Assembly (NCBI RefSeq): GCF_012516375.2
Contig: NZ_CP051204.2
Location: 3,348,001-3,412,000, forward strand
Direction: 5' to 3'
Length of the DNA stretch: 64,000 nucleotides
Source: Chitinophaga oryzae
GTDB taxonomy: Bacteria > Bacteroidota > Bacteroidia > Chitinophagales > Chitinophagaceae
The position numbers and the translations under genes are program-made. Of the stretch, positions 32,246 to 48,453 are shown piece after piece (positions within the stretch are counted from its first letter, which is position 1; every line of letters begins with the position of its first letter). The notes under the pieces are model-generated. The model saw only the letters and a program-made list of their open reading frames with translations, made no database searches and was not told where the DNA came from.

Positions 32246-32512
32246 TTAAACACTTTTTTTTAGCACATCCTGTAACATTTGCTTGTCCAGGCTTAGATCT
32301 GCGACAATCTGTTTCAGCTTGAAGTTTTCCTCCTCCAGCTGACGCAATCTCTTAAGCTCGGTGATGCCAAGCCCTCCGTACTTCTTTTTCCAGTTGTAGA
32401 AGGTAGCTTCACTCACTCCCATCTTTCGACAAACCTCTTGTACCGCTACCCCTGTTTCTGCCTGCTTCAGCGCAAAAACGATCTGTGCCTCCGTAAATTT
32501 GGATTTTTTCAT
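32246..32512 (-). CDS. IS3-family transposase orfA (HTH_Tnp_1)
   Basis: This is an 88-residue DNA-binding half starting [17 protein letters not shown]. It has the [30 protein letters not shown] and a Leu-zipper-like helix ([18 protein letters not shown]) that joins transposase subunits. Near its end the coding strand has eight A residues followed by G (32253-32261), an IS3-type slippery site. A -1 shift there enters the orfB frame and joins it as [17 protein letters not shown]. The gene is intact. Confidence 0.88.
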
Positions 32513-32542
32513 GGCAATTACCTCCTTTTTAAAGTTATCAAT

Positions 32543-32595
32543 AATTGCCCATTTTCTCTAATTTTAAACTGCCCGATTTTTCGGTACAAGGTCAC
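32543..32595. repeat. 53-bp inverted repeat, right copy (IS right end)
   Basis: This is the right terminal region of the first IS and the perfect reverse complement of 31327-31379. It also supplies the last ten codons and stop of the truncated orfB of the second IS, showing that the first element interrupts the second. Confidence 0.8.
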
Positions 32596-33424: not shown

Positions 33425-33785
33425 CTCACGCTTATCTGCAGGCGTTAGAGCTTTTTTTCTATGACATCTTTCATTACGGTGATCTGAAAGGCTTGTTCCG
33501 CTACTATTTTTTTGTACTGGGCAAGTTCCGACTCCAGATCCTTCAGTTTCTTTAACTGATTGACTTCAAGCCGGAGTATTTCGACTTCCACTGATAAAAT
33601 GTCGCCTGGCTTATTCCATGATCACGACAGATGTCGGCTACCGATTTGCCTGATTCCTGGCCATTTAGAATCCCAATAATCTGGCTTTCTGTAAATTTTG
33701 ATTTTTTCATACCCATTAAATTTAACGATTATTCGATATTTTTAACCGTTACGTTTTAATGGGAAGCTTTCAGAACCGCCCCCTT
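32596..33785 (-). mobile_element. Second IS3-family element, broken remnant
   Basis: This is a remnant of another, different IS3-family element, carrying orfA and orfB on the minus strand. Its outer right end lies near 33770-33790 (TTTTAATGGGAAGC followed by the G-rich-complement stretch ACCGCCCCC). No matching left end is seen either beside the first IS or left of it at 31310-31327. The left end therefore appears lost, probably in a deletion made by the first IS. orfA is frameshifted. The exact right boundary is uncertain and no target duplication was found. Confidence 0.65.
33445..33710 (-). pseudogene. Frameshifted orfA of the second IS3-family element
   Basis: The reading frame starts [21 protein letters not shown] and carries an HTH (SVADICRDHGISQATFYQWKSKYSGL). 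It hits a stop at 33552 after only 52 residues. The expected continuation EVNQLKKLKDLESELAQ, with the usual coiled-coil helix and the end VIEKKL, is present in another frame. The whole span is 266 bases, one short of the 267 needed for an 88-residue orfA. One base is therefore missing near GGCTTGAAGTC, and TTGGAAG would restore it. The element is inactive unless rescued in trans. Confidence 0.75.
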
Positions 33786-33989
33786 TCGGAGCTGAGATTA
33801 TATTTTGATTTTAAATTATTGATAATCAGGTAGATATACATATTGTGTCGTGACGCTTCCGTCTTGCTGATTTGGTCACCTGCAAGGCTTTTTTATATCT
33901 GGTGATGTTGTGTACCTGATTGTACAGGAATTCCCTTATTTTTGACGCCTGACTTAAAAGAATAAATAGCTCCACAAGAGTTTATAAAT

Positions 33990-34556
33990 ATGTATAAAAA
34001 TTTAGAAATAAATTTCCAGGAGCAATATTTTGACATTGAAGCACCGATCATTCCAGGCGTAAGTCTGGGTGGCATACAGCAGGGGATGCAGGTAAAAGGC
34101 CTGGAGAAGATGTTTCGTACGGACCAGTACTTTGCCCGTGACAAGAAGATCAGCCTCGTGACAACACCTTCCTTGCGATATATAGAATACTGGTATATGG
34201 GTGGTATTATCCGCCTGAAAGTGGACATCTACGATGGGCGGATTACCAATATCATCGCCACGAAAGGCTATCAGGGTACGGTTAACGGCGTGCTTCGTGT
34301 AGGTATGACCGTACGTGAAGTCCTGCAGGTGGATGCGGGCTTTACCTGTTATTCTCCTCCCGGCGGATTGATGAGCCCTAATTTCCTGGGTATCTGCCTG
34401 TATTTTACACCAAACTTCGACGCAGAGACCGACAGCCTGTCGGACTATATGGACCATAAGATCCTGGGCATTGGCCTGATCAATGAATTTAATGCGGAGG
34501 GTGACGATGTGTATGTAATGTTATATGGTTTGAACCATCCCCGGTTTAACGGTTAG
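33990..34556 (+). CDS. Hypothetical protein, possible orphan immunity gene
   Basis: This is a 188-residue protein that I do not recognise. It has no signal peptide and is beta-rich, with repeated Gly turns (PGVSLGGIQQGMQ, GVLRVGMTVREVL, GICLYFTPNF). The GxxLGxI/GMxVxxV pattern is reminiscent of small intracellular immunity-type proteins that gather behind RHS toxins. Its position 2.7 kb downstream of the RHS tip, across the insertion sequences, would fit an orphan immunity gene separated from its toxin. This is a weak inference. A TAnnTTTG box (TATTTTTG at 33937-33944) lies 45 bases upstream, but without a well-spaced -33 element. Codon use is closer to the GC-rich neighbours than to the AT-rich tip. 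The last four bases overlap the convergent GNAT gene. Confidence 0.5.
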   Translation: MYKNLEINFQEQYFDIEAPIIPGVSLGGIQQGMQVKGLEKMFRTDQYFARDKKISLVTTPSLRYIEYWYMGGIIRLKVDIYDGRITNIIATKGYQGTVNGVLRVGMTVREVLQVDAGFTCYSPPGGLMSPNFLGICLYFTPNFDAETDSLSDYMDHKILGIGLINEFNAEGDDVYVMLYGLNHPRFNG

Positions 34557-35017
34557 TTTTTCAGTTCCATATCATACCGGTCCAGTCCCGGACCGTAGAA
34601 ATCAGGCGTGACTTTCGTCACGGCGAATCCCATTTTCCCAAAGAAAGGGGCGGAGTGTTGTGTGGTATCCAGCTGGATGGCGCAGGAGGGGCATACTTCC
34701 CTGATGGCGTTTATCCTGTGCAGCAGCAGTTTTTTGCCCCATCCCTGTAGATGGTATTGCTGATGGAGCAGTCCCCACGTCATGACCGCGGTGGTTTTGT
34801 CGGCACGGATATAATAACCGCCGCAACCGATGATCTTCTCCGCTGTTTCGATGACGAAATAACATTCGTTTTTATCCGATAGGTCGCGTTTCCCCTGTTC
34901 TTCCAGCCATTCGCCGAAGTCTTTCAGTTCTTCCGGAGCGAAGAACCTGGGCATATTGCTGCGGAAAGCTTCCAGGCAGGCGGATTTATCGGCGGTGGTG
35001 TATGGTCTGATGGTCAT
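34553..35017 (-). CDS. GNAT family N-acetyltransferase
   Basis: This is a protein of about 154 residues with the GNAT pattern. It has TIRPYTTADKSACLEAFRSN at the start and strands ECYFVIETAEKIIGCGGYYI in the middle. The acetyl-CoA loop lies around QYHLQGWGKKLLLHRI (QxxGxGK/A type, with W in place of one small residue), and a final PFFGKMGF sits before the last strands. Acceptor unknown. The start giving MTIRPYTTAD is typical for the family; the open frame extends 22 codons further into the neighbouring gene. It converges with the hypothetical gene on the plus strand and lies 17 bases behind the small gene 35035-35646. Confidence 0.82.
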   Translation of the reverse strand: MTIRPYTTADKSACLEAFRSNMPRFFAPEELKDFGEWLEEQGKRDLSDKNECYFVIETAEKIIGCGGYYIRADKTTAVMTWGLLHQQYHLQGWGKKLLLHRINAIREVCPSCAIQLDTTQHSAPFFGKMGFAVTKVTPDFYGPGLDRYDMELKN

Positions 35018-35034
35018 GCAGTGAAGATAGGCAA

Positions 35035-35646
35035 TTATGCCGTGATCTGTTCCGTGGCTACCTGATGTAAGATTTCCCGGCATCGGGCTCCGAAAACAGC
35101 TTCTTCTTCGGGTGTATTGGCTGGTGTGTGGAGGAGGTCGTGGAGTTGTTGCTGTAAGGTGTCGCTTATTTTTCCGCTTCCATAGAGCCAGGATTTTTCC
35201 TGTTCGAAATTGTCCAGATAGTGTTGGGTTGTACGCTCTTTTAACGCTTCTGCTGTAAATTCCAGTCGGATGACTTCCTGTCTGCCTTTGGTGAGGATGA
35301 TAGAAGAATATTCTGTGCTGCCGTGGGCAATGCCATATTCATCCGGTTCGATTAACACCTTTCCCTGTTCGACGAAGCGGGTGTAGAGGGTTTTGTTGGG
35401 GGAGGTTTCGATGACGAGTTTGGGTTTTTCTTCATTGATGAGTAAGGTTCGTCGCTGCTCTGTGAAGCAGACCATTCGGCGCAAGGAAATTTCTTTGTGT
35501 CGTTTGTCCTGAAAGAGAATACCAACATCTTCAAAATGTATGAAATGTGGCTTTGTGAAAGGTTTGATGTAACTACAGTAGTAAAATGGGACTGTATTTT
35601 CCAAGGTATGTACTTTAGGGTTTGTTTCGGCAATTCTTAATATCAT
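35035..35646 (-). CDS. Hypothetical protein resembling an AraC sensor half without DNA-binding domain
   Basis: This is a 203-residue cytosolic protein of no recognised family. The N-terminal two thirds are beta-rich. The end (SDTLQQQLHDLLHTPANTPEEEAVFGARCREILHQV) looks like the helical linker that in Bacteroidota AraC regulators precedes the HTH, but the frame stops before any HTH. It could be an HTH-less AraC-like sensor, or simply a small unrelated protein. It is divergent from the AraC gene at 35822 with 175 bases between, a typical place for a partner or target. Confidence 0.45.
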   Translation of the reverse strand: MILRIAETNPKVHTLENTVPFYYCSYIKPFTKPHFIHFEDVGILFQDKRHKEISLRRMVCFTEQRRTLLINEEKPKLVIETSPNKTLYTRFVEQGKVLIEPDEYGIAHGSTEYSSIILTKGRQEVIRLEFTAEALKERTTQHYLDNFEQEKSWLYGSGKISDTLQQQLHDLLHTPANTPEEEAVFGARCREILHQVATEQITA

Positions 35647-35821
35647 GTTGTATTCTTTTAGAAAAGGATGAAAAAATAACTAACAAGTTATGATTCCAAA
35701 CTGCTGATGTGACCGCAGCAATAAAAACTTAACATTGGATGGAATGCTTTTCTGTAAAGAGTTTGGAGTTAGTTATTTTGCGTTACCTGTAATACATTAG
35801 CAGTGTTTTTTTCTAATTTGT

Positions 35822-36844
35822 ATGATCTACTTATTTGGTCGACCGCCTAAAACCACTTTTGAGATGTCCCTCTTCCAAACCATGGAGTTTGTTATAGCAA
35901 ATGCGCCCAGTATTCATGTCGTTCCCTGTGTGACGATTCCGGAGGCTTATATGCAGTATACACAAGGGTTTGCTGAACCGTATTTATTTACATCTTCCAA
36001 AATAGATATTCTCGTGCAGCGCTATGAGGCGAGCGGCACTTCTGTTATTAATATTGTTTTTATTGCTCATGAGAAATCGATTGTAGAGACGCAGGTTAAA
36101 AGTGCGTTCCATGTCTGTTCCTGTATGCTGCAGGGTTCGACGGAGGTGCTTGTGAGAAGTTTAGGGAAAGTGTTGCTGTATCAGGGGCAGTTTAACATTT
36201 TTGAAGTAAAACCGGAAAAGCTGTTGTTGTACTTTGAACCGGGAGTGTATGAGTGGCAGGGTATTACCTTTTCAAAGAAACAAATCAGCGATCTGGCGGG
36301 GTTGTCGCCTATGCTGAACAAGTGGCTGTCTATTATCGACGGGGCGAAGTTTGATGCTGTCAGCAAACATTCCGGCATCATACAGGAGGAGCTGGGGAAC
36401 CGCATACGGGAACTAAAGAAGGCAGTTGTGTCCAAAAAGCTAAAGGGTCTGTGGATGCAGCATAAAATATTCGAAGTGCTGATGTGGGTGGTGAGCTATT
36501 TCGAAGGAGAGCAGTCATCAGACGTGGGGAATAACGAGTTTATGCTGTTTGCCGGTATTAAGTCCTATATAGACCAGAACCTGGATATTCCCCATACCAT
36601 TGCGGAGCTAGCCCATATGTATAATATCAGTGAATCAAAGATCAAAAAGGGTTTTTCCAAATACTATCAGATCCCCATCAGTAAATACCTGATCAAACAA
36701 CGGATGGAAACCGCGGAGCGGCTGGTGCGGGAATCGGGTCTGAGTATGAATAAAATAGCCTACATGCTGGGATATGGCTATCCGGCCAACTTCACCAGGG
36801 AGTATAAAAAGTATCATGGAAAACTGCCGGGATCTACCCGTTAA
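35822..36844 (+). CDS. AraC family transcriptional regulator
   Basis: This is a 340-residue regulator. The first 150 residues are a beta-rich sensor (VINIVFIAHEKSI, GKVLLYQGQFNIFEV). A helical linker at about 150-235 contains LSPMLNKWLSII, the LxxLxxxL pattern common in Bacteroidota AraC proteins. The C-terminal AraC HTH pair runs from about 245 to 335 (IAELAHMYNISESKIKKGF and IAYMLGYGYPANFTREYKKYHG). It lies between a small divergent gene and the kinase/peptide cluster, 381 bases upstream of the kinase start. It is a reasonable candidate regulator for that cluster, though this rests only on position. Confidence 0.85.
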   Translation: MIYLFGRPPKTTFEMSLFQTMEFVIANAPSIHVVPCVTIPEAYMQYTQGFAEPYLFTSSKIDILVQRYEASGTSVINIVFIAHEKSIVETQVKSAFHVCSCMLQGSTEVLVRSLGKVLLYQGQFNIFEVKPEKLLLYFEPGVYEWQGITFSKKQISDLAGLSPMLNKWLSIIDGAKFDAVSKHSGIIQEELGNRIRELKKAVVSKKLKGLWMQHKIFEVLMWVVSYFEGEQSSDVGNNEFMLFAGIKSYIDQNLDIPHTIAELAHMYNISESKIKKGFSKYYQIPISKYLIKQRMETAERLVRESGLSMNKIAYMLGYGYPANFTREYKKYHGKLPGSTR

Positions 36845-37225
36845 CCTCCCAATGTTAACTTTTTCGAAAAAACTAAAATGATAAGGTACCATTCCCAAAA
36901 TGAATATTTTGTTATTTTTTTATTAAGGAACTTTATATTGTTGACGTTGTCATCAGGAAAATCAGAAAGCCCGAAAAGAAGAACCTAACAACTTTATCAA
37001 AATAACCGATCATTTTTCCTGGAGAGTTATCATTAAAGACGAAATCGAATAATCTGTAAAAAAAATGCAGCGAATAAAATGTGTGGAGGCTTCCTGGTTC
37101 CTCGCAGCCTTGCTATGCCAATGGATGCTATAAGTAATCCCGAATAGTGATGTGTATACATTGTGCCCGTATTGGTATGCCACCTTTTGTCTGGCAAAGG
37201 CTTCGCATTGCATAAAATAATACAT
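36845..37225 (+). other. 381-bp AT-rich intergenic region before the kinase cluster
   Basis: No gene is supported here. The region is AT-rich, with T runs around 36908-36925. A 22-codon open frame at 37065-37133 (MQRIKCVEASWF and so on) has no relation to the peptides downstream and is probably chance. A promoter for the kinase operon is expected here, but I see no convincing -33/-7 pair. Confidence 0.4.
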
Positions 37226-38623
37226 ATGATAAACGAATTGAAGGAAACACACAACCAGAATGTAGATCAGCAAAATGGTTTCCACCACCTGCTTGATGAA
37301 ATGGGAATACCTTATCAGGAAAATGAAAATTTTCTGACAGTGGGTAATTTATCCTATCAGAATGGATGGGTGATTTTTTTGTCGGTTAATTCTCACGAGC
37401 TAGGAGATTTGATAAAAAATGTTGCTCCTGTCTTGTATGAATTGAAGGTGGCTTTTAGTTGTGTGAAGAGTGAAAATATCGCCGAGAAAGTGAATGATTT
37501 TTGGTATGGTGCTGATGAAGTGGGCCGGCTGTTTACCGTATACTCTAATGATGAAGATATTACCAGACAAGCTTTGAAGAAATTGACAATGCTGACGAAG
37601 TGTTACAGTGGACCTCAGGTTAATAACGCGATAAGGGTAGAACGCGTATTATATGTGACTTATATAACATTTCAGCAGGAAGAAGGTAGCGAGACAGAGA
37701 AAAAGCAGTGGAAGTTTTCACTAAGTGCTCCACCGGTGAAAAAAATACCATTTAAAATTAATGCTGCGTATAAATATTGGCGACGTAAACGCATCTTAAA
37801 AAGGAGATATGTTCCACTGGAGATGATTGCCCGATCTTCTAAAGGAGATCTTCTAAAGGCTATTGATATGAAAGGATTTCGCTTTGGGTGGTGTTTTATT
37901 AAAGAAGGTAAGAGCCATGTTTTTGTAGATAAGCATGGCCGGGACATCAAAGATCGCTTTAAATGGCAGCGACAGTTACTGCAGGCATTACAAAATGACG
38001 TGGCGGTTCCCAAGTTCATCGATTACTTTGAACAGGGCGAGGAATGTTATCTCGTCATGGAATATTTGGAAGGGATAGATTTGAATACAAAGATCTATGC
38101 AGCGCACAAAGAAAAGAAATGGGATGAATGGGAGGAGGAAAGCCGGCGGGAATTCATCGGGTATTATCTACAGGTTTTAGAAATCCTTGAAAAAATGCAT
38201 CAAAAAGGGTATGTACATCGTGATGCGACTGCAAATAATTTTATAATTCTCCCTTCCAAAGAATTATATACAATTGATCTTGAGTTAAGCTATAATTTGA
38301 ATACCAGGCAGCCTGATGTTCCTTTCACACTTGGTTCATTTGGTTATGTATCTCCTCAGCAGGCAAATGTTGAAGTTCCCACTGTAAAAGAAGACATTTA
38401 TGCGATGGGATCTTTATTGATACATGTGATCGTTGGCAGGCATCCTCGTAATTTTATTACCCTTGAACACGAGGTAGATATTGAAGGGCTAAGGTCGTTA
38501 ATTACTTCAGGCCCCGTTCTTGATTTAATTTTAAAGTGTTTGGAAAATGAGCCTGAGAAGCGCCCGGAACTGAATGAAATCAAACAGGTAATCCGAAAAG
38601 TTTTTACAATTGATATTTTATGA
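37226..38623 (+). CDS. LanKC-like protein: degenerate lyase-like domain plus Ser/Thr kinase, no cyclase
   Basis: This is a 465-residue cytosolic protein, starting at the ATG giving MINELKETHN; a GTG 63 bases upstream is less likely. Residues about 1-170 follow the N-terminal domain of class III lanthipeptide synthetases: NGWVIFLSVNS for GWKxHVSA, VAFSCVKS for VAFKVLRS, VGRLFTVYSNDED for GKFITIYP, then a GP turn. The K-x-H and K positions are V49, F51 and S78, so lyase activity is probably lost. Residues about 195-465 are a kinase with WCFIKEGK (Lys226), VMEYLEG, HRDATANN (Asp333, Asn338), IDLE (Asp351), GSFGYVSPQQ and DIYAMG. The chain ends behind the kinase, where a full LanKC would continue with a zinc-binding LanC domain. 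The stop overlaps the MauE start (ATGA), and three small exported peptides follow. Phosphorylation of those peptides is the suggested job. Confidence 0.75.
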   Translation: MINELKETHNQNVDQQNGFHHLLDEMGIPYQENENFLTVGNLSYQNGWVIFLSVNSHELGDLIKNVAPVLYELKVAFSCVKSENIAEKVNDFWYGADEVGRLFTVYSNDEDITRQALKKLTMLTKCYSGPQVNNAIRVERVLYVTYITFQQEEGSETEKKQWKFSLSAPPVKKIPFKINAAYKYWRRKRILKRRYVPLEMIARSSKGDLLKAIDMKGFRFGWCFIKEGKSHVFVDKHGRDIKDRFKWQRQLLQALQNDVAVPKFIDYFEQGEECYLVMEYLEGIDLNTKIYAAHKEKKWDEWEEESRREFIGYYLQVLEILEKMHQKGYVHRDATANNFIILPSKELYTIDLELSYNLNTRQPDVPFTLGSFGYVSPQQANVEVPTVKEDIYAMGSLLIHVIVGRHPRNFITLEHEVDIEGLRSLITSGPVLDLILKCLENEPEKRPELNEIKQVIRKVFTIDIL

Positions 38624-39048
38624 AAAGGACTTATGTAACTGATTTTGCAATTACTTTATACGTGATTCTGTTTTCTTACACATCAGGGAGCAAATTTCTT
38701 GATATAGATCAATTTGCCCGTGATATGGAAAAACAGCCATTTAATCACATAGTAACGGAGGGGTTAACCTGGGGAGTTCCTATTATTGAATCACTGATTG
38801 TATTAGCATTGATTTTTCCCCGCTACCGGATTGCGGGATTAAAGGCTGCCACAGGATTGATGCTTCTTTTTACAGTTTATGTATTGTTGGTGATATTAAG
38901 GATGTTTGATAAGGTCCCCTGCAGTTGTGGGGGAGTTATAAGGAGCCTGAACTGGGAGCAACATCTTGTGTTTAACCTGTTTTTCGTTGCCTTGGGGCTG
39001 TTCGGTTTGGGTATTCAATTAAAGAAGCCGGTCTTGAAATTTAACTAA
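38620..39048 (+). CDS. MauE/DoxX-like redox-associated membrane protein
   Basis: This is a 142-residue inner-membrane protein with four hydrophobic segments. It carries the CSCGG motif in DKVPCSCGGVIRSLNW, followed by the last helix, which is the hallmark of Bacteroidota MauE-like proteins. MauE helps disulfide formation in methylamine dehydrogenase, and related DoxX/DsbD-like proteins pass electrons across the membrane. The start overlaps the kinase stop by four bases (ATGA), so translation is coupled. The three peptides downstream have a conserved Cys pair, and a TlpA thioredoxin is encoded just beyond them. Redox treatment of the peptides is therefore the natural hypothesis. This is inference. 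Confidence 0.8.
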   Translation: MKRTYVTDFAITLYVILFSYTSGSKFLDIDQFARDMEKQPFNHIVTEGLTWGVPIIESLIVLALIFPRYRIAGLKAATGLMLLFTVYVLLVILRMFDKVPCSCGGVIRSLNWEQHLVFNLFFVALGLFGLGIQLKKPVLKFN

Positions 39049-39124
39049 AATACTAATGCGCATAGTACAGGTAAGCCACCTGTATAAAAATGGTTCTCAA
39101 TTAATAACCTTTAAAATCAGAAAC

Positions 39125-39373
39125 ATGAAAAAGTTACAAGTTGCTTTCGCCGCACTGGCTGCTGTTGCGGGCGTTGGTGGAGCTTATGCTTCTACTCATT
39201 CCAATGATGCAGCACGCACCGGAACCATATTCAACTGGTATACAGTTAATGGTCAGTACAGATTGACCGGTACTACAGCGACTGCAAGGTTCCAGTCTTG
39301 TAAGTTGCCTGGTACAGTTATTTGTTTGAAAGGTACAGCTGGTTCAAAAAAAGCTACCTTATTCAAACCCTGA
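39125..39373 (+). CDS. Small exported peptide 1, candidate substrate of the kinase
   Basis: This is an 82-residue peptide. The start MKKLQVAFAALAAVAGVGGAYA is a good Sec-type signal with cleavage after AYA. The mature part (about 60 residues) holds the block TIFNWYTVNGQYRLTGTTATA, here in two parts (TIFNWYTVNGQY and LTGTTATARF), and then CKLPGTVIC with C-x7-C. The tail is rich in Lys and Gly. It is rich in Thr, the target of Ser/Thr kinases. Similar small proteins near MauE and TlpA genes in Bacteroidota are filed under DUF6520; I think this peptide belongs or is close to that group, but cannot confirm it. The upstream open frame to 39056 is not needed. A long perfect hairpin follows the stop. 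Confidence 0.75.
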   Translation: MKKLQVAFAALAAVAGVGGAYASTHSNDAARTGTIFNWYTVNGQYRLTGTTATARFQSCKLPGTVICLKGTAGSKKATLFKP

Positions 39374-39388
39374 TCTTTGTTCTTAGAT

Positions 39389-39425
39389 AAAGTAAGGAGA
39401 TAGTGTTGAACTATCTCCTTACTTT
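39389..39425 (+). terminator. 16-bp perfect hairpin behind peptide gene 1
   Basis: AAAGTAAGGAGATAGT and ACTATCTCCTTACTTT pair at all 16 positions around the loop GTTGA. The hairpin lies between peptide genes 1 and 2. It has no T run, so it may stabilise or partly end the transcript, giving more of peptide 1 than of later products. Confidence 0.6.
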
Positions 39426-39451
39426 GTCATACCGGTTATAAACATTATTTT

Positions 39452-39706
39452 ATGAGCAGATTAGCGAATATGATCTCAGTTTTAGCCACTTTTGTTGGAA
39501 TTGGTGGGGCATATGCCGGTTATAATTCAACTTTTAGTACAAAACGAATTACTATTTATAACTGGTATACAGTTAATGGCCAGTATAGGCTTACTGGCAC
39601 TACAGCGACCGCAAGGTTCATGGAGTGTCCGTTAAAGGGATTTGCTCCTTGTTTAATAGGGACGATTGGTACATGGAGGCGTATAACTTTGGGACGCCCT
39701 TCCTGA
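39452..39706 (+). CDS. Small exported peptide 2, paralogue of peptide 1
   Basis: This is an 84-residue peptide with signal-like start MSRLANMISVLATFVGIGGAYA, where GxGGAYA is shared by all three paralogues. The mature part has the same block (TIYNWYTVNGQYRLTGT, then TATARF) and a Cys pair CPLKGFAPC with identical C-x7-C spacing. The signal's n-region is less basic than in peptide 1. The tail (TWRRITLGRPS) differs from peptide 1, so the paralogues have separated beyond the loop. No separate promoter was seen; the gene lies 26 bases behind the hairpin. Confidence 0.72.
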   Translation: MSRLANMISVLATFVGIGGAYAGYNSTFSTKRITIYNWYTVNGQYRLTGTTATARFMECPLKGFAPCLIGTIGTWRRITLGRPS

Positions 39707-39842
39707 AAATAGAAAGTCGTTATATTGCTTCCCGGGTGTTTTGATTGCGGGGTGTTTAATATGTACCTGGGTGTTCTGATGCATTGGCGCTAATTGTTGT
39801 AAAACTGTTTTTGTTCTTATAAGGTATAATATTGTTAATAGG

Positions 39843-40094
39843 ATGGATTTGAAATTATTTTTTTCGGTATTGGCTGCTATTCTTGGTATAGGAGGTGCCT
39901 ATGCGACTAGTCATTCCAGCGGCTCTGCACGTGTTGGTACCATTTTTAACTGGTATACAGTTAATGGTCAGTTTGTCTTTACGGGTACAGTATCTGCTGC
40001 GATGTTTATGGTATGTCCTCTGACAGGGAACTGTGTCTGTATGAAGGGTACCGCTGGAGCAAAAAGAATAACTTTTTTTCACCCTTGTCATTAA
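39843..40094 (+). CDS. Small exported peptide 3, paralogue with extra cysteines
   Basis: This is an 83-residue peptide starting MDLKLFFSVLAAILGIGGAYA. The core block is TIFNWYTVNGQFVFTGT. The Cys loop is CPLTGNCVC, which keeps the C-x7-C frame but adds an inner Cys, and a fourth Cys sits near the C-terminus (HPCH). A 136-base gap before it holds two short repeats (GGGTGTTTTGATTGC and GGGTGTTCTGATGC) but no gene. Its own terminator follows directly. Loss of the TATAR stretch and gain of cysteines suggest diversifying selection or a different product. Confidence 0.72.
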   Translation: MDLKLFFSVLAAILGIGGAYATSHSSGSARVGTIFNWYTVNGQFVFTGTVSAAMFMVCPLTGNCVCMKGTAGAKRITFFHPCH

Positions 40095-40129
40095 AGATGA
40101 GATGGTGAGGGTAGCCATCTCATCTTTTT
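40093..40129 (+). terminator. Terminator of the peptide operon
   Basis: AAAGATGAGATGG pairs perfectly with CCATCTCATCTTT around a nine-base loop and runs into TTTTT. It begins at the stop codon of peptide 3 and closes the kinase-MauE-peptide operon. The converging TlpA gene ends 31 bases beyond. Confidence 0.75.
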
Positions 40130-40159
40130 GGTTTGGTAACTAAGGTCGTCAATGAAAGA

Positions 40160-41413
40160 CTAATTGATGTTTTCGAGAAATATTATTTCTCTTTTTCGTT
40201 TCTCGATATTGATATCAAGGCCATATCTGTTTAGCTCTTTTTTTATTTTCTGAAGCTCTTTTGTACGAGGTATTGTAACTGTGATTCTTCCGTTGTAATC
40301 TGTTTCATTCAGTACTTCATGTTCTAGGTTGTTGTACAATCCGTTGTTAATAACAAAGTCAATCCCAATATTTTTTATGATAATTTTATCCACTGTTATG
40401 TCGAGATTATTGGCTGGAGTTTCATCTTTTGAGATGAAATCACTTCTGTTTTCTAATCTCGATAGTATATAGCAGGGCATTTCTACTTGTTTGACTTTAC
40501 TTTGCAGTGAGAAGTAATTGTCAAGCGAATTGTGCATAATTTTTCTTGCTTTTGAGATGGAGGTATCCCGTATTATTAATTCATAGCTATAAGGCAACTT
40601 TAATTCAGGTGTTTTTTTTGCCTGATTTTCCGACCATGATTTCCCGTTAAAGAAGACCTTGTCAGGCCCCGATATGTCATAGGCTACTTTGTATAAGATG
40701 TCCAGCATACAGTTAAGACATAGTGCTTTGACGGTGTTGTTTTCTTTTGCATATTGTACGCCCCAGGACACATTGGATATTTTGGGGTCATATTCACTAA
40801 TATATGAGTAAAAGAGTTGGCCTTTGCTATTGTTGAATTCCCGGTCAATTAGAAATAGAGGGAGGCGACGTTGTTCTGGTGTCAACTCTTTTTTTTCAGA
40901 AAGCGAAAGTGAAGCTCCGTTAAGAAAGGCAACCAGGTTTTGAGTTGTTAATTCCTCGTTTGAGGTGATAGCCTGTACCACTTTGTTGCGATCAATCCAA
41001 ATTTCATGAGGCTCTTTTGTGTGTGGAAACATAAGCATTAAGCTATCTGAGCGTTTTAAGTCGGTGATGATAGGGAATTTTCGAAACACCGGATTTTTTT
41101 TTGTAAATGCAAGCACTGCGTTTCTGTTTTCGAATGTTGCAAGTAGTATATTGAACTTGCGGGGATTGGCCTTCTGCAGGGAGTCAAGATGAGGGACTAA
41201 CTCCATACATGGTGCGCAGCCTATAAACCAGAAATCGATTATCAGGGGTTTGTCGTTAAAAGTAGAAAGAAGTACATTCTCCTTGCTGTAATTAACGACG
41301 TTTCGTAGGAGGATGTCTTGATACGGCTTTCCTATTTCTATTTTTTGTCCGATGCTTGATTCTGTTGAAGCAATGAATGTTATTAGCAATATTATTTTTT
41401 TTGCTATTTTCAT
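40160..41413 (-). CDS. TlpA-type thioredoxin with C-terminal DUF3738-like domain
   Basis: This 417-residue exported protein has a signal peptide ending SIGQ. A thioredoxin-like domain (about 25-165) has the active site WFIGCAPCMEL, so CxxC is intact. The C-terminal region (about 300-417) resembles DUF3738 (LDITVDKIIIKNIGIDF and ELQKIKKELNRYGLDI). TlpA/ResA proteins reduce or exchange disulfides in the periplasm. Bacteroidota members often follow SusC/SusD genes, as here, 30 bases behind the SusD stop. Its closeness to the Cys-containing peptides and the MauE gene suggests a shared redox role. Two extra cysteines (LCLNCML) sit near residue 240. AT-rich like its neighbours. Confidence 0.82.
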   Translation of the reverse strand: MKIAKKIILLITFIASTESSIGQKIEIGKPYQDILLRNVVNYSKENVLLSTFNDKPLIIDFWFIGCAPCMELVPHLDSLQKANPRKFNILLATFENRNAVLAFTKKNPVFRKFPIITDLKRSDSLMLMFPHTKEPHEIWIDRNKVVQAITSNEELTTQNLVAFLNGASLSLSEKKELTPEQRRLPLFLIDREFNNSKGQLFYSYISEYDPKISNVSWGVQYAKENNTVKALCLNCMLDILYKVAYDISGPDKVFFNGKSWSENQAKKTPELKLPYSYELIIRDTSISKARKIMHNSLDNYFSLQSKVKQVEMPCYILSRLENRSDFISKDETPANNLDITVDKIIIKNIGIDFVINNGLYNNLEHEVLNETDYNGRITVTIPRTKELQKIKKELNRYGLDINIEKRKREIIFLENIN

Positions 41414-41443
41414 ATTATGGATTATTGTATAAGTTGTAGTTGA

Positions 41444-42847
41444 TTAATTATAGCCATTGTTTTGTGTGAGCTGAGGATTGAGTATCATTTCTCCCCTTGG
41501 AATTGGAAATAGTGTGTCTGTATCATTCCACTGCGCTTTAATGGGTTTTAGCGTGGCGATTGCAAGTTTATTTCTCTTCAAATCATACCACCTATGTCCC
41601 CATTCTGCAAATAATTCGATCCTCCTTTCATGTTGCAAATATGCAAGAGCTTGTTCATGGGATATATTGGTGGGCCTGTTTTGTAGAATTTCCGAGTTGG
41701 TGCCTCGGGCACGGCTTCTGATCGTGTTTAGGTCGGTGATGCCATCGGAGATCTTACCTTGCCTGATCCTGGCCTCGGATCTGATGAGATACTGTTCAGC
41801 CAATCGAAACATTGTGTAATACTCACTGATGGTGTTGTTGGGCCTTGCTGGAACTTTATATTTGAAAGGAAAGCTGTAGGTTTTGCCGTTTAATGTCCGG
41901 GTACTTGTCCAGGAGTCCCGTCGTGGGTCTTCTGTTTCAAAAGCCTGCCAGAGCCGATCGGTGATCAGATAAGCGGGTGTTCCCTTGGGTGAAAAGGGAA
42001 CAAAGTTGTTCCCTTCAAGTGTATTTATAGTGTTACCATAAGGCATTATTTGCCAAATAGCTTCACTACTATTCATAAGGAATACCTTATTTAAGTCTGT
42101 GACAAGAGAGTATTTTTTTGATTCAATTACCGCATTTGCCTCTGCCTCTGCTGCAGCCCAATTGCCCATATAAAGGTAGACTCTGGCAAGTAGTGCGCTA
42201 GCGGTAAAAAGATTGGGGCGTACCGGATTATCACTTGGGTAGTCTTCTTTTAATTGCTGTTTAGCACTGGTAAGGTCCTCAATAATTAGGTGATATATTT
42301 GATTAGTTGCCGTTCTTGGCAGATTTGCTGATGTATGATAGTCGGTTCCAGTGACAAGTGGTACGTCGCCAAATAGCTGTATGAGATTGAAGTATAGAAG
42401 GCTTCGTATAACCTTGGATTCTCCCAGGAGCTGATTTTTGACGCTGGGAGATAGTGTGTGGCTCGCCGAAATGCCTTCAATGCAGGCGTTTGCCTGATAG
42501 ATATATTGATAGGCCGGTTGCCAGAAATTAGTTTGTACGGTGGGGTTAGTGGTAGCAATGGAATTGGTCTCGAATTCCTTTATATCCGAACTGTTAAATG
42601 TATATTGTAGCTCGTCGGCGGCGAGACCGGTATAAACGGTAACTCCTCCCGCACACAGACTTGTGCTGGAGGAGAACTGAGAATATATGCCTACTACGGC
42701 TGATGTTGCATTTGCATCACTGCTGAAAGTGACGTCAGTTGTCAGTTTATTAGTTGGTATGCCAACATCCACGAATTTACTGCAACTTATAGATGTTGTT
42801 AGGAAGATAAAAAAAAGAATATGTTGAGTTGTTTGTGTTGTTTTCAT
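41444..42847 (-). CDS. RagB/SusD family outer-membrane lipoprotein
   Basis: This 467-residue lipoprotein has lipobox SISC at residues 19-22. It has the SusD layout: an alpha-helical TPR scaffold (TASALLARVYLYMGNWAAAEAEAN in parts), the insert that forms the ligand face, and the C-terminal ERRIELFAEWGHRWYDLKR signature near residue 420. SusD proteins sit on the cell surface as lids of SusC transporters and bind the ligand. The ligand here is not readable from sequence. It is 26 bases behind SusC in the same operon. It is shorter than many sugar-binding SusD proteins, and the operon has no glycoside hydrolase, so a non-sugar ligand such as a peptide is possible. Confidence 0.9.
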   Translation of the reverse strand: MKTTQTTQHILFFIFLTTSISCSKFVDVGIPTNKLTTDVTFSSDANATSAVVGIYSQFSSSTSLCAGGVTVYTGLAADELQYTFNSSDIKEFETNSIATTNPTVQTNFWQPAYQYIYQANACIEGISASHTLSPSVKNQLLGESKVIRSLLYFNLIQLFGDVPLVTGTDYHTSANLPRTATNQIYHLIIEDLTSAKQQLKEDYPSDNPVRPNLFTASALLARVYLYMGNWAAAEAEANAVIESKKYSLVTDLNKVFLMNSSEAIWQIMPYGNTINTLEGNNFVPFSPKGTPAYLITDRLWQAFETEDPRRDSWTSTRTLNGKTYSFPFKYKVPARPNNTISEYYTMFRLAEQYLIRSEARIRQGKISDGITDLNTIRSRARGTNSEILQNRPTNISHEQALAYLQHERRIELFAEWGHRWYDLKRNKLAIATLKPIKAQWNDTDTLFPIPRGEMILNPQLTQNNGYN

Positions 42848-42873
42848 GTTAGAGTATTTAGCAGTGAAGAATT

Positions 42874-45800
42874 TTATAAGGCCACTTGAATTCCACCCGT
42901 AATTGTTCTCATTGTTGGTATATTAAAGATACTTTGTGTTTCGGGGTCACCAATGTAGTTGGTGATAGTGAAAAGGTTAGCAGCTTGCAAAAATAATTTG
43001 CAATCCTTTACGGATACTTTTTTCAGATAATATTGGGGAAGAGAGTAAGTAATGGAGATGTTTTTAATTCTGACAAAGGATGCATCACTATATGTGCCGC
43101 TGGACAACCGATAAAGCAAGGCTTTTGCGTATGCATCACTATACGTAATGCTGGTGAATTTTTCGAAGGGAGCTATGTCTCCTGTATTTTGCCACCGGTC
43201 CAGTACAGCAGTTGGTTGGTTATACATCATCCCGGGATAGTAGTTCGAAAAGAGATCTGCCCGGTAATTCTTTCCCACCTGTTTTCTAAAGGAAACTAAA
43301 ATGTTTAACTGGAAATTCTTGTACCGTATTTCTGTTCCGATTCCTCCGTAGTAGCTGGGATTTATTTGAGCAACCGTCTGGAGATCTTTAATGTTGATGG
43401 AGCCATCATTGTTGAGATCCTCAAAAGTAAACAACCCTGTTTTGGGATCAACGCCCAGTTGCTTGTAGGCGCGGATGATATTGATTGATTTTCCAACTTC
43501 ATATTGATTGGCGTAGCCGGAAATGCTGAGTCCTGGAAAGCTCTCTAATCTGTTGGATGGAATTGTTATATTACCATTAACACTCCACTTTAGATCCCTC
43601 TTGTTGATCATTTTGACTGTAAGGTCCAGCTCTGTTCCCTTGTTGATTATAACTGCAGGTAGATTCTCAAGAATGCTATAAAACCCGGTCTGTCCCGGAA
43701 GCGGAGCATTTACAAGTTGATTATCACTCCTGTTTTTATATATATTGGCCGACAACAATATTTTATCCTTCCAAAGGCCAAGGTCTATGGAGATTTCCAG
43801 CTTTTTGTTTCGTTCCCAGGAGAAGTTGGGATTGAACAGAATGTCCGGTCTGAGCGCTGGAGTACCCTGATATGGAGGTACTCCCATTGAGCTCCAGCTG
43901 GGAAGGTATTGATAGTCGCCTATTTGGTCGTTACCGGTTACTCCGTAACTGCCTCTTAGTTTTCCATAACTAAGTACAGATGACAACGGCGAAATAAATT
44001 TCTCATTGCTAAAGATCCATGCTACTCCTGCTGATCCAAAATTAGAGAATCTCTTTCCCGGGCCAAAGCGAGACGAGCCGTCTCTTCTGCCCGTTAAATT
44101 AATTATGTATTTGTCAGAATAGATATAGTTTAACCTGCCAAAAACTGCCTGATATCTATATTTGACATCATTTGACGTCTTATAGGAGATGTTGGGAGCA
44201 GCGGCCAATGACCCCAGTAAGTTGTCGGAAGTATATCCGGTAGCCATAATAAATAGAAAGTCTCTTTTATTATCTTGTAACGTACTACCGACCAGTGCAT
44301 CTAATTTTCCTTTCAAGAGAGAGGTGGTATAGTTGATCTGCGGCTCAATAATCCAGCTTTTTATGTTACCATTTGAAAATGTAGATGTTCCTGTTGGGTT
44401 ATCGACGGGGTCTTGTGATAAAATAGGGCTTGTCTGAGTTTCTTTGGTGTTTATGATATTAAATCCTGCGTTTACCGCAACGGTGAGGTTGGGGAGCAGT
44501 TTGTAATTCAGATTTAGCCGGGTTAAATAATTGTTGGAATTAACGGTGTACTTTTTCTCTAAATCACCCAGCGGATTATGAAACGGGATACCTTTTTCCT
44601 GCCAGTTTAATTGCCCCGTGGAATCATAGAGAGAAGGGATGTTGGGAGGTGAGAGAATACTAAATCCACTAGCTGCTGGCAGAGTATTGTTATCGAAACT
44701 TGAGATCGCGGCGAGAGAAATAGTCAGTTTTCTGTTGAGAGAGGTATGGCTCAGGTTGAAGTTCAATGATGGCCTGCTGTCCGCGCCATCAGCAGGAAAT
44801 ACAGATGTTTCTCGATGAAGGGTTCCGCTGACCAGAAATTGCGTAGAAGCATTCCCACCTGACAGGGACAAGGTAGCATTATATACTTTAGCGGTACCTC
44901 CTAACAGAAGTTTCTGGATATCTGTGTATCTGGTGGTGTCCCAGATCATCAGATCCGGGGCATATCCGATACTGCCGGGAATTGCACTCGGAGTGATGCC
45001 GTCGTTTTTGAAAGCTTCTTTTCGAATAGCGATGTACTGTTGTGTGTTCAACATATCTAAACTCCTGGTAACCTTGCTCAGACCTCCGTTAACTATTGCC
45101 TGGAAGGAAGTTAGTCCCGGTTTTCCTCTTTTAGTAGTAATCAGCACTACGCCATTCGCTCCCCGGCTGCCGTATATGGCTGTTGCATCAGCATCTTTGA
45201 GCACCTCGATACTCTCTATGTCTGCCGGGTTAATCATGCTAAACGGGCTTAGCCCCGCTCCGTTTCCGTTAGTTAGCAGTGAGCTTACGTTGTTGAGGTT
45301 GTTGTTGTTGGGCGCAAATGGGATACCGTCTATGATATAGAGAGGCTCAGTCCCGTTTATGAGTGAATTCTGACCTCTGATCTGGACTTTCACCGAAGCG
45401 CCGGGAGCGCCGCTGCTTTGTGTGACCAGCATACCCGGTACGCGTCCTTCCAGGGTGGCGAGCGGGTTGGAAATCGGCTGCCGGCCGATCTCTTCCGCCG
45501 TTACTTTACTGATAGAGCCAGTGTTCAGTCTGCGGGAGGTAACACCATAGGCCATTACGACAGCCTCGTCCAGTTTGTTGTTAGCAATGTCCATCTGAAT
45601 ATGAAGGGGGCTATTGCCGGAAGCACTGATCTGCTGTGGTACATAACCTGTGTAGGTAATCAATAACACTGCTCCGTGTGGGACGTTGTTTAGAGTAAAT
45701 GCGCCTTTTTCATTGCTGATGGTTCCTTTTCGTGTAGCCTTTATGTATATAAACGCGCCAGGGAGTGGTGTGCCGTTAATGTCTCTTACTTCACCTGTTA

Positions 45801-46197
45801 CAATACGGCCGGCAGCGGAATCGGGGGGAAGCAAATTAGCGGAAGCTTCCGTTTTCTCCGGTTTTAATACTACCGTTTTCATTCTGAATTCCCATGTAAT
45901 GCCACGCGGCGACAGCAGGTTTTTAAAAACACTACTGAGGGCTGTTTCTTTTACGTTGATACTTACACGGTACGAATCCTGTACCTGGTTGGTATTGTAC
46001 ATGAATACGAGGCCGGTTTGCCTTTCAATTCCCTTAAATACCTGGTTTAACGGAGCATCCCTGAATGACAGCGTTACCTTTATGTCTCCCTGGCTGCCAG
46101 CCATAGCGGAAAAGGAGATGCACAGGATGCAGCCGTAAAGCATCAGTACCAGTAGCTTGCGGAGACTGTCGCCGCGCAAGGAGTGAGTAATGTTCAT
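42874..46197 (-). CDS. SusC/RagA family TonB-linked outer-membrane transporter with STN domain
   Basis: This 1107-residue transporter has in order a signal peptide (ends SAMAG), an STN domain (about 40-115, VTLSFRDAPLNQVFKGIE) and a CarboxypepD_reg-like domain (about 130-215). A plug follows (about 220-345, LNTGSISKVTAEEI, GRVPGMLVTQSSGAPG and ESIEVLKDADATAIYGSRGANGV in parts), then the SusC-type barrel. The STN domain signals through a FecR-type anti-sigma, and a sigma/FecR pair lies divergently 500 bases away, so ligand-dependent self-induction is likely. SusD and TlpA follow in the operon. A (CAA)8 run sits in the leader, 28-51 bases before the start. No carbohydrate enzymes are nearby, which sets this apart from polysaccharide loci. 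Confidence 0.92.
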   Translation of the reverse strand: MNITHSLRGDSLRKLLVLMLYGCILCISFSAMAGSQGDIKVTLSFRDAPLNQVFKGIERQTGLVFMYNTNQVQDSYRVSINVKETALSSVFKNLLSPRGITWEFRMKTVVLKPEKTEASANLLPPDSAAGRIVTGEVRDINGTPLPGAFIYIKATRKGTISNEKGAFTLNNVPHGAVLLITYTGYVPQQISASGNSPLHIQMDIANNKLDEAVVMAYGVTSRRLNTGSISKVTAEEIGRQPISNPLATLEGRVPGMLVTQSSGAPGASVKVQIRGQNSLINGTEPLYIIDGIPFAPNNNNLNNVSSLLTNGNGAGLSPFSMINPADIESIEVLKDADATAIYGSRGANGVVLITTKRGKPGLTSFQAIVNGGLSKVTRSLDMLNTQQYIAIRKEAFKNDGITPSAIPGSIGYAPDLMIWDTTRYTDIQKLLLGGTAKVYNATLSLSGGNASTQFLVSGTLHRETSVFPADGADSRPSLNFNLSHTSLNRKLTISLAAISSFDNNTLPAASGFSILSPPNIPSLYDSTGQLNWQEKGIPFHNPLGDLEKKYTVNSNNYLTRLNLNYKLLPNLTVAVNAGFNIINTKETQTSPILSQDPVDNPTGTSTFSNGNIKSWIIEPQINYTTSLLKGKLDALVGSTLQDNKRDFLFIMATGYTSDNLLGSLAAAPNISYKTSNDVKYRYQAVFGRLNYIYSDKYIINLTGRRDGSSRFGPGKRFSNFGSAGVAWIFSNEKFISPLSSVLSYGKLRGSYGVTGNDQIGDYQYLPSWSSMGVPPYQGTPALRPDILFNPNFSWERNKKLEISIDLGLWKDKILLSANIYKNRSDNQLVNAPLPGQTGFYSILENLPAVIINKGTELDLTVKMINKRDLKWSVNGNITIPSNRLESFPGLSISGYANQYEVGKSINIIRAYKQLGVDPKTGLFTFEDLNNDGSINIKDLQTVAQINPSYYGGIGTEIRYKNFQLNILVSFRKQVGKNYRADLFSNYYPGMMYNQPTAVLDRWQNTGDIAPFEKFTSITYSDAYAKALLYRLSSGTYSDASFVRIKNISITYSLPQYYLKKVSVKDCKLFLQAANLFTITNYIGDPETQSIFNIPTMRTITGGIQVAL

Positions 46198-46248: not shown

Positions 46249-46705
46249 AATGAATGTTAAAATGAGGTATCCCCATTATGAAGACAACATTTAAATTATT
46301 CAGGGCTAACAGCGGGGTGGATTTTTCATATTAACTTAATGTTATGCAGGTTACAGAAAAATAACATATAGAATTTTTATAATTGAGATGAGACTCCGTT
46401 ATTTGCATATCAAATTTTCATAACAACCGCTTAACAATTTAATTTTTGTCCATTCTGCAGTAACCACCATCAATCTCTTATTTTCATGTAACAAATAGAA
46501 GCATAGCATTAACAGTATGCTGCCTTACGTTACATCGGCTGTATAACGGAAACATAGGCCTCCGTCAAGCATAGACATTGGCGCATGGCTTTAAGCAATC
46601 TTCTCATAGTTGCGCCATTGACTTTGGTGAGTCATCCCTGTTTATCCCTTTGAAATGGTGTTTAGCAGTCTTTGTTCGTACAGCATACCTTACCGAACGC
46701 AAGTC
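46249..46705. other. AT-rich divergent control region between susC and the sigma gene
   Basis: About 460 bases without a supported gene, AT-rich. It must hold the promoters of the SusC operon and of the sigma/FecR operon. I found no exact TAnnTTTG box; the SusC promoter may be read by the adjacent ECF sigma. The open frame before the sigma ATG (from 46655) is not needed. Confidence 0.5.
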
Positions 46706-47257
46706 ATGAACAGATTTGGAAATGATATGATACTATGGCAGCAGCTGAAGGAGCATGATCCCGAAGCCTTTGCCCATATTTATATCACCTATCGGAAATG
46801 GTTGATGGTAGTGGCCTATGGGATACTGCAGGATGATACGGAAGCACAGGATGTGGTACAGAAATTTTATGTCGACCTCTGGCAAATGGACTGGGGGAAA
46901 ACCGGCACATTATCCGGCCCGATCAGGAACTTTCTTTTCATCAGTATCAGAAACCGCTGTCTGAACCAGGTCCGGGCAAATGAAATTAAACGGAAACGCG
47001 CTACCGCCATTCAGCTTTCGGGGGAATATGAACCACCTGTCAACATTCTGGAGACCAAAGAACTGCAACAACAGCTGTCGCATGCAATGTCTAAGCTGCC
47101 CGCCGTACGTTCCAGGGTTTTTAAACTCGGATATTTATATCAGTATTCCCGGCAACAGATAGCCCGCCATCTTGGTATTAGCGAGGCCACCGTTAAAACA
47201 CATATGGCGCTCGCATTGAAGGACTTGCGCAATCTGCTGAAAAATAGTGTATATTAA
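46706..47257 (+). CDS. ECF-type RNA polymerase sigma factor (FecI-like)
   Basis: This is a 183-residue sigma factor. Region 2 covers about 20-85 (DPEAFAHIYITYRKWL, DTEAQDVVQKFYVDLW). Region 4 (about 115-180, LPAVRSRVFKLGYLYQYSRQQIARHLGISEATVKTHM in parts) has the HTH SRQQIARHLGISEATVKTH. It is the group of sigma factors paired with FecR in Bacteroidota. The start used is the ATG giving MNRFGND; an earlier ATG adds 17 residues, and a later one (MILWQQL) is also possible. A FecR gene follows 41 bases downstream, and the SusC gene diverges from it. Activation of the SusC operon when SusC is loaded with ligand is the standard model, inferred here. Confidence 0.9.
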   Translation: MNRFGNDMILWQQLKEHDPEAFAHIYITYRKWLMVVAYGILQDDTEAQDVVQKFYVDLWQMDWGKTGTLSGPIRNFLFISIRNRCLNQVRANEIKRKRATAIQLSGEYEPPVNILETKELQQQLSHAMSKLPAVRSRVFKLGYLYQYSRQQIARHLGISEATVKTHMALALKDLRNLLKNSVY

Positions 47258-47298: not shown

Positions 47299-48453
47299 AT
47301 GAGAAGTAATCCGGAAATACAAAGGCTGATAACAGAAAAGCTCGGAGGCATTATCAGCGCCGCCGATGAGGCCTATCTTGACCATCTGATCGAAACCGAC
47401 CATCAGGTGGCTGTTATGTGGCAGCAAACTAAAAGTTTATACCGTCAGGAAGATCTGGACAATAACTTCCGACGTTTTGATGACCTCCCATGGCAGGAGA
47501 TGCCATTTCAATCGGAAGTGGATGCTGCGCTTCAACAAAGGAAAAATCAGCCCGCCAGGGAAATACGTCGGCTACAGCCGTTGATATCGGCCGCCGCTAT
47601 TGCCTTCCTGATATTGACGATCACAGGAGGATGGCTATTCCGTTCCCGTACTGCGGCACCTGAATCTTTATCGCTGCTTAATTCTTCGACCGGTGTCCAA
47701 TTGTTGCTGGGCGATGGTCAGAGGCTGAACTTGTCTAAAGACAGTGGAATCCTCCACATTGGTACCACACAGGCCGTCAATACTAATAATACGCTTTCAC
47801 TGCCCGAAAGTACCATTCAGAACAAGCATGGTAATGAAAACTTAACATTAGCCGTCCCCATTGGGCAATACTACACCATAAAGCTTTCGGATGGGACCGT
47901 AGTGGCACTGAATGCTGCTTCTACACTAAGGTTCCCCGTACCTTTCTCCACGGACGCTCGTGAGGTATATCTTTCCGGAGAGGCGTTTCTTACCGTTGCC
48001 AAAGATGCGGCGCGCCCCTTCCTGGTACATACCGCACAAGGTACTGTACAGGTGCTGGGCACATCCTTTAATGTGAATACCTATGATAGCGGTAGCGTAA
48101 AAGTATCTTTAGTGGAGGGCGCGGTGAAAATGAACGACGTGCCGCTCAAACCCGGTCAGCAAGCCATAGCAACAAACAATGGCATCCGCATCCAACCCTT
48201 CGACGAACCCGAGGAACTCTCCTGGCGCCGGGGCGTCTTCTACTTCTCCAATACCACCCTGGCCGATATCACCCGCATACTGCCCCGCTGGTTCGGTATA
48301 CCCGTGATCATGGACAATACCCGCATCGCCGGGGAAACCTTTACCGGCAGCCTGGAACGCAACCAGCCCATCACGGTATTCCTCGATAACCTGAAATCAA
48401 CGACAACAGTAGATTACTACTTCGATAAAAAAGGCAGCCTGCATTTCAAATAA
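47299..48453 (+). CDS. FecR family anti-sigma protein
   Basis: This is a 384-residue inner-membrane protein. It has a short cytosolic N-terminus that binds sigma, one membrane helix at about 95-115 (SAAAIAFLILTITGGWLF), a periplasmic FecR domain (about 190-285, with YYTIKLSDGTVVALNAAS and GTSFNVNTYDSGSVKVSLVEGAV in parts) and a C-terminal DUF4974/STN-like domain (FYFSNTTLADITRILPRWF). It holds the ECF sigma inactive until the STN domain of SusC signals. The ATG follows 41 bases after the sigma stop. The gene ends four bases before the end of the opposing response regulator gene, without room for a terminator between them. Confidence 0.9.
   Translation: MRSNPEIQRLITEKLGGIISAADEAYLDHLIETDHQVAVMWQQTKSLYRQEDLDNNFRRFDDLPWQEMPFQSEVDAALQQRKNQPAREIRRLQPLISAAAIAFLILTITGGWLFRSRTAAPESLSLLNSSTGVQLLLGDGQRLNLSKDSGILHIGTTQAVNTNNTLSLPESTIQNKHGNENLTLAVPIGQYYTIKLSDGTVVALNAASTLRFPVPFSTDAREVYLSGEAFLTVAKDAARPFLVHTAQGTVQVLGTSFNVNTYDSGSVKVSLVEGAVKMNDVPLKPGQQAIATNNGIRIQPFDEPEELSWRRGVFYFSNTTLADITRILPRWFGIPVIMDNTRIAGETFTGSLERNQPITVFLDNLKSTTTVDYYFDKKGSLHFK

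Follow-up and report, generated by a model that had tools for sequence, protein, structure and literature searches.

A cyclase-less relative of lanthipeptide synthetases linked to MauE and exported-type two-cysteine peptides in Chitinophaga oryzae

Genes at the locus

We describe here a gene block of Chitinophaga oryzae that centers on a 465-residue relative of the class III lanthipeptide synthetases (LanKC), an enzyme with lyase-fold and kinase domains and no cyclase, whose gene is followed by those for a MauE-family membrane protein and three small peptides of exported type. The block lies in a window of 64,000 nucleotides, by which we mean the whole stretch of DNA analysed (contig NZ_CP051204.2, positions 3,348,001 to 3,412,000 of the forward strand), and coordinates below are those of the window unless another locus is named. 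Its features are as follows.

35822..36844, + strand: AraC-type regulator, first gene of the conserved block (PF12833, 58.5 bits; in 8/8 close loci)
37226..38623, + strand: cyclase-less LanKC relative, pseudo-lyase and Ser/Thr kinase, 465 residues (hidden Markov models, residue table, Foldseek)
37277..37720, + strand: RamC_N (lyase-fold) domain, about residues 18-165, limits approximate (PF25816 match at residues 45-161; catalytic residues lost)
37784..38608, + strand: kinase domain, about residues 187-461 (K226, D333, N338 and D351 kept; alpha-C Glu replaced by Gln)
38620..39048, + strand: MauE-family membrane protein, 142 residues (PF07291, 98.8 bits, cut-off 27)
39125..39373, + strand: exported-type two-Cys peptide 1, 82 residues
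39452..39706, + strand: exported-type two-Cys peptide 2, 84 residues
39843..40094, + strand: exported-type peptide 3, 83 residues, with an extra Cys
40093..40127, + strand: terminator-like hairpin, 14 pairs
40160..41413, - strand: thioredoxin-like (TlpA-type) protein with C-x2-C (PF00578, 24.4 bits, below the cut-off of 26; in 8/8 close loci)
41444..42847, - strand: SusD-like lipoprotein (PF14322 and PF07980; in 8/8 close loci)
42874..46197, - strand: SusC/TonB-dependent receptor with STN domain (PF07715, PF07660; in 8/8 close loci)
46655..47257, + strand: sigma-70 factor, FecI-like by position (PF08281, 50.5 bits)
47299..48453, + strand: FecR anti-sigma factor (PF04773, 78.7 bits)

The mauE start codon overlaps the stop codon of the kinase gene (ATGA), and the TlpA-like, SusD and SusC genes are convergent to the kinase-MauE-peptide genes. 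The start of peptide 1 is placed at 39125 by homology and not at 39056. A preliminary description, made from the sequence alone, had recognized the coupled MauE-like gene and the three related exported-type peptides, which share GxGGAYA, TI(F/Y)NWYTVNGQ and C-x7-C, and both observations hold. It had also proposed a closing terminator; the hairpin is indeed present, but the region contains no more such sites than its shuffled versions (3 against a mean of 3.1). The continuation of the conserved block into the TlpA-like, SusD and SusC genes had not been pointed out there. No Pfam match to an ABC exporter or a peptidase was found among the 16 window proteins scanned.

Domain make-up and active sites of the enzyme

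The 465-residue open reading frame matches RamC_N (PF25816, 53.8 bits, cut-off 27) at residues 45-161 and Pkinase (71.5 bits, cut-off 31.7) at residues 249-454. Its best NCBIfam model is LanL (NF038150), which scores 179.3 bits against a cut-off of 650 and is covered from position 20 to 455 of its 851; the cut-off of the LanKC model (NF038151) is likewise not reached (132.3 bits against 575). The 15 best Foldseek matches in the PDB are class III synthetases of the ThurKC, CuvL, SalKC and PneKC type. These results agree with the preliminary reading of the protein as the lyase and kinase parts of a LanKC ending where LanC would begin, the similarity to the LanKC N-terminal domain being clear. 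The LanC-like cyclase (PF05147) has no match in the protein and none in the window, as had been noted, and the preliminary view that the system is not a standard lanthipeptide pathway is supported.

Relatives of the enzyme fall into several architectures. A protein search limited to 0.55-1.75 times the query length, in which full-length LanKC proteins (850-920 residues) could not appear, returned 16 close entries at 49-100% identity, one of them the window protein itself; every one has RamC_N and a kinase, and none has LanC. Below these ranked 17 entries, made up of 16 kinase-LanC fusions lacking RamC_N and a lone kinase, followed by two proteins of RamC_N-kinase make-up at 26% identity and, last, by general kinases. 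The family profile matches in 63 of 79 genus genomes at E 0.001, the proteins being cyclase-less (about 436-515 residues), full-length (about 850-920) or kinase-LanC without lyase (about 700-790); at the level of the family Chitinophagaceae, matches at E 1e-20 are found in 32 of 394 genomes. From the genus matches we took 60 regions: 32 cyclase-less (33 with the window), 10 full-length and 18 kinase-LanC. The cyclase-less set comprises intact frames of up to about 520 residues, with partial, split, odd-length and remaining full-length rows left out; the full-length set comprises 11 proteins from its 10 regions plus L012, 12 in all, and the kinase-LanC set 20 proteins, including those in L052 and L061. 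Four of the close loci (L008-L011) coincide with four of L043-L048 and are counted once. A sample of other genera adds six loci, three cyclase-less and three full-length.

That the gene is a truncated LanKC pseudogene can be ruled out, since the frame is intact in eight close loci, the 16 close homologues terminate at the same position, and the ratio of nonsynonymous to synonymous substitution (dN/dS) is low in related pairs, indicating purifying selection; the pairs were drawn from the second and third groups, with none belonging to the group of the window protein. In the best tree the cyclase is lost twice, and a single loss appears in 0% of 200 bootstrap trees; a single loss is nonetheless not rejected (p-AU 0.329).

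The genome itself, searched as one 8.36-Mb contig, contains six LANC_like matches, all outside the window. These raise the prospect of a split lanthipeptide system in which lyase and cyclase are supplied in trans, and a possible precedent is seen at two of the genus loci (L052:5184-10531 and L061:6972-12223), where about 1.7 kb separates a cyclase-less lyase-kinase from a kinase-LanC fusion that is convergent to it and has no lyase; a Thr-rich two-Cys peptide of exported type is encoded upstream, and the two enzymes are possibly a split or co-opted pair. However, both loci are among the three of the cyclase-less set without MauE and downstream peptides, more than 500 kb separate our locus from the nearest LANC_like match, the 465-residue enzyme is the sole RamC_N match of its genome at E 0.001, and a HopA1 lyase has no match at the same threshold; we regard supply in trans as a remote prospect.

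The lyase active site was compared by transferring positions from ThurKC by alignment, with residue numbers from PMC10604976. At the ThurKC positions K65, H67, K94, K108, K117, D152, R163 and R191 the window protein has V, F, S, F, R, A, T and W, respectively. H67 is kept in two of the 33 cyclase-less genus proteins (L063 and L069), and K65, D152 and R163 in none; full-length genus relatives keep H67 in 10/12, D152 in 8/12 and R163 in 11/12. In the other genera the three cyclase-less proteins keep none of H67, D152 and R163 and the three full-length proteins keep all, bringing the totals to 2/36, 0/36 (D152) and 0/36 (R163) in cyclase-less enzymes and 13/15, 11/15 and 14/15 in full-length ones. 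K65 is absent from all 15 full-length enzymes too, and this position alone is thus uninformative. The lyase domain retains its fold, but by this alignment its active site has been lost. Although derived from LanKC, the enzyme lacks two of the features that define this class, namely the cyclase and the lyase residues, and hence is not a member of it.

The RamC_N fold has been retained and in relatives is subject to purifying selection, 31 of the 33 cyclase-less proteins have Lys or Arg at the position of K117, and the absence of K65 from full-length relatives indicates that the family tolerates changes in the site. A rearranged lyase site that still dehydrates Ser/Thr, giving linear peptides with dehydroamino acids, would fit these observations; it is nevertheless decidedly unlikely, given that the window protein has substitutions at each of H67, K94, D152 and R163 and that neither R163 nor D152 occurs in any of the 36 cyclase-less enzymes. 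The pairing of phosphorylation with elimination implied in the preliminary description is thus the part of it that does not stand. Since the window protein and almost every cyclase-less relative examined lack the lyase residues, no mass shift of -18 Da is anticipated, and the natural expectation is one of +80 Da.

The kinase site is kept. K226, D333, N338 and D351 are invariant in the 16 close homologues, and across the cyclase-less set the beta-3 Lys (33/33), the catalytic Asp (32/33), the Asn (33/33) and the metal-binding Asp (33/33) are retained.

Conserved neighbourhood and the exported-type peptides

The genes for the AraC regulator, kinase, MauE, at least two peptides, TlpA-like protein, SusD and SusC stand in the same order in all eight close loci, the window included, and because this order recurs the locus is more than a chance assembly. 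Among the 33 cyclase-less loci, MauE lies on the same strand within 700 nucleotides of the kinase gene in 30, and 30 have within 3.2 kb downstream an exported-type open reading frame with C-x4-12-C, compared with 21 of 240 background tiles from the window's own genome; the peptide filter was devised after the peptides were known, and it is the contrast with background that gives the fair reading. The same three loci (L052, L058 and L061) lack both MauE and downstream peptides, two of them (L052 and L061) adjoining a kinase-LanC fusion. Kinase-LanC loci have MauE in 0/19 and peptides in 2/19 (0/20 and 3/20 with L099, itself a kinase-LanC fusion, included), and full-length loci have MauE in 5/12 and downstream peptides in 7/12. 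A peptide is also found on 15 of the 16 kinase contigs of the close entries, the same contig being judged by equal size, and the exception is a contig of 2.6 kb. The proposed link between the kinase, exported two-Cys peptides and a MauE-type membrane protein therefore survives the genome survey, in which the close group has kinase and peptides together at every locus; more distant cyclase-less relatives have other two-Cys peptides.

Five full-length lyase-kinase-LanC enzymes of Chitinophaga (L075, L077, L079, L080 and L101) also lie beside MauE and small exported-type peptides, mostly with TlpA-like and SusCD genes too, and may represent a set of LanKC lanthipeptides whose leaders are of signal type.

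A profile search with the peptides returned 47 proteins, of which all those named by organism are from Chitinophaga and two are labelled DUF6520. In 46 aligned peptides A20-Y21-A22 (46/46), Trp38 (46/46), Thr50 (45/46), Thr71 (46/46) and Thr78 (40/46) are strongly conserved, and 44 have exactly two Cys after the leader, 6-8 residues apart. A third peptide group keeps both Cys in 8/8 and has Thr (7/8) or Ser (1/8) at the Thr50 position. We considered a double-glycine leader and set it aside, judging by pattern only: the GG is not kept across groups, whereas the A/S-x-A end is.

The peptides were also compared with DUF6520 (PF20130). With a cut-off of 25.4 bits, peptides 1 to 3 of the window give 17.1 bits, no match and 14.9 bits, so none passes; the model scores weakly across peptides of several groups, including those at full-length loci, and one of 13 scanned (P0095, a close relative, 25.7 bits) exceeds the cut-off. 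Against the window's own genome the model has no match at E 0.001, but control genomes are equally silent, so that this does not show absence. DUF6520 matches occur in 11 of 295 Bacteroidia genomes, eight of them over the cut-off.

Several other properties of the block are worth recording. The first 75 nucleotides of the kinase gene (37226-37300) are 96-100% identical per 15-nucleotide bin among seven loci, third codon positions being 89-100% identical, and identity drops sharply after about nucleotide 77; the same seven kinases are otherwise about 50-55% identical. This segment is single-copy in the genome and is confined to the starts of these kinases, in 7 of 79 genus genomes. An RNA element was considered here and rejected, there being no Rfam match at this position and no unusual fold (z 0.97); a weak Rfam match to mir-2160 inside mauE (31.9 bits, gathering threshold 70) is taken as chance. 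Upstream of the kinase gene a block of about 48 nucleotides (36895-36942) is near-identical in all eight close loci, and is possibly a promoter or regulator site. The G+C content over the block (window 30001-46000) is about 39-46%, against about 50-57% in the flanks, and insertion sequence-type transposases at 31410-33424 lie on the edge of the low-G+C segment. The proteins of 33990-34556 and 35035-35646 have no Pfam or PHROG match at E 0.001, and in four close loci (L008-L011) relatives of both occupy the same place upstream of the gene for the AraC-type regulator.

A candidate peptide kinase and its comparison with known systems

Since the kinase residues are intact and no working lyase or cyclase, nor in the genome a second RamC_N or a HopA1 lyase, was found, the simplest product is a phosphopeptide. 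We propose that a three-domain synthetase of lyase, kinase and LanC lost its cyclase and its lyase site, leaving a dedicated peptide kinase in which the dead lyase domain would serve as a structural scaffold and would probably also contribute to the groove in which the N-terminal helix of the precursor is bound. The cytosolic enzyme would phosphorylate Thr or Ser in the small precursors, the best candidate sites being Thr50, Thr71 and Thr78 of peptide 1, which are near-invariant; the precursors would then be exported by means of their signal-type N-terminus with its A-x-A end, and MauE together with the TlpA-like protein would set the C-x6-8-C disulfide. The resulting peptide may have its role beyond the cytoplasm, perhaps in conjunction with the SusC/SusD receptor; the sigma/FecR pair encoded nearby would then report on this receptor. 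We give an even chance to the core of this proposal, a LanKC-derived peptide kinase with its dead lyase as scaffold or leader dock, yielding phosphorylated, disulfide-bonded exported peptides.

A number of points weigh against it. A signal-type leader on the substrate of a cytosolic kinase is unusual. At the Thr71 position the third peptide group has Thr in only 1/8 and Ser in 1/8. By structural Z alone CuvL ties with ordinary kinases such as PknB (26.7 over 247 residues), a comparison in which the lyase part is barely tested outside the CuvL row. Within the kinase itself, the alpha-C Glu is Gln in every Chitinophagaceae enzyme examined, full-length ones included, except L058, where it is Asp; L058 (4764-6176), a cyclase-less protein without MauE or downstream peptides, also has Asn in place of the catalytic Asp and is a possible pseudokinase. 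Both features would suit a leader-binding chaperone or pseudokinase that holds peptides for export and has no catalytic role, a reading we consider very unlikely, as the beta-3 Lys, catalytic Asp, Asn and metal Asp are kept in 32 or 33 of 33 proteins and the Gln is common to full-length enzymes that keep the lyase.

The DUF6520 loci elsewhere bear on the substrate. At 13 such loci in Bacteroidia (10 over the cut-off) MauE lies within 1.5 kb in 11 and a kinase in none, suggesting that peptide and MauE are probably the older module, to which the LanKC-type kinase was added in Chitinophagaceae. The same counts weigh against our proposal and would fit a kinase that acts on some other protein, a regulator or a component of the envelope, leaving the peptides with only the disulfide made by MauE and the TlpA-like protein. 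This is on the unlikely side: 30 of 33 loci have kinase, MauE and peptides side by side, downstream peptides are also present in 7 of 12 full-length relatives, and known LanKC kinases act on precursor peptides (PMC10604976).

Mutants of ThurKC cut both ways for the proposed phosphopeptide. In that report, H67A and R191A left phosphorylated intermediates, with K94A the peptide carried no modification at all, and neither K65A nor R163A gave turnover (PMC10604976); a dead lyase does not, then, by itself predict a phosphopeptide, a further point on the negative side. That source also describes the leader helix as binding in a groove formed by the kinase and lyase domains and helping to set the kinase active, which gives a reason to retain a dead lyase.

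The locus illustrates how a lineage of lanthipeptide synthetases has given up two of three activities together yet held on to its kinase and to its association with exported peptides, and the phosphorylated state, normally a passing intermediate, becomes a candidate end product; the unstudied DUF6520 peptide family is also linked in this way to a modification enzyme. The broader claim is that this is a new kind of ribosomal product, in which a LanKC lineage without elimination and cyclisation has become a peptide kinase family, joined with a MauE/TlpA disulfide module acting on Sec-type exported peptides, the phosphorylated disulfide peptide being tied to a FecI/FecR-controlled SusCD receptor; we advance it tentatively, as a plausible reading that falls a little short of even. 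Among the matches listed in the open-access literature no title or abstract opening describes a cyclase-less, lyase-dead LanKC, which is weak evidence of absence, and the word DUF6520 was not found in the open-access literature searched. In the RODEO survey, class III or IV is assigned only if a protein with a LanC-like domain also matches a kinase model, and most LanKC and LanL enzymes are reported from Actinobacteria and Firmicutes, with many class I LanC in Bacteroidetes (PMC7268733). Cyclase-less loci fall outside such a rule, and a phosphorylated disulfide peptide, if real, would lie beyond the reach of genome mining that requires a LanC domain.

The closest known systems each share some part of this arrangement. 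Class III synthetases (ThurKC, CuvL, SalKC and PneKC) have the same RamC_N fold followed by a Ser/Thr kinase, but the window enzyme has no LanC domain, has lost the lyase residues and is paired with MauE and peptides with signal-type leaders. The class IV LanL/VenL enzymes supply its best NCBIfam model, over lyase and kinase, although it scores far below the cut-off, lacks the cyclase and has lost the equivalents of VenL Lys51 and His53 (PMC2843593). DUF6520 peptides of Bacteroidia are likewise small, of exported type and next to MauE, whereas no kinase lies within 1.5 kb of them in 13/13 loci and the window peptides stay below the DUF6520 cut-off. Finally, the phosphorylated lasso peptides made with ThcoK also come from a ribosomal precursor that is phosphorylated and retains its phosphate (PMC8498205); their kinase, however, is a homologue of HPr kinase and not of LanKC type, it modifies a C-terminal Ser, and the product has a lasso topology.

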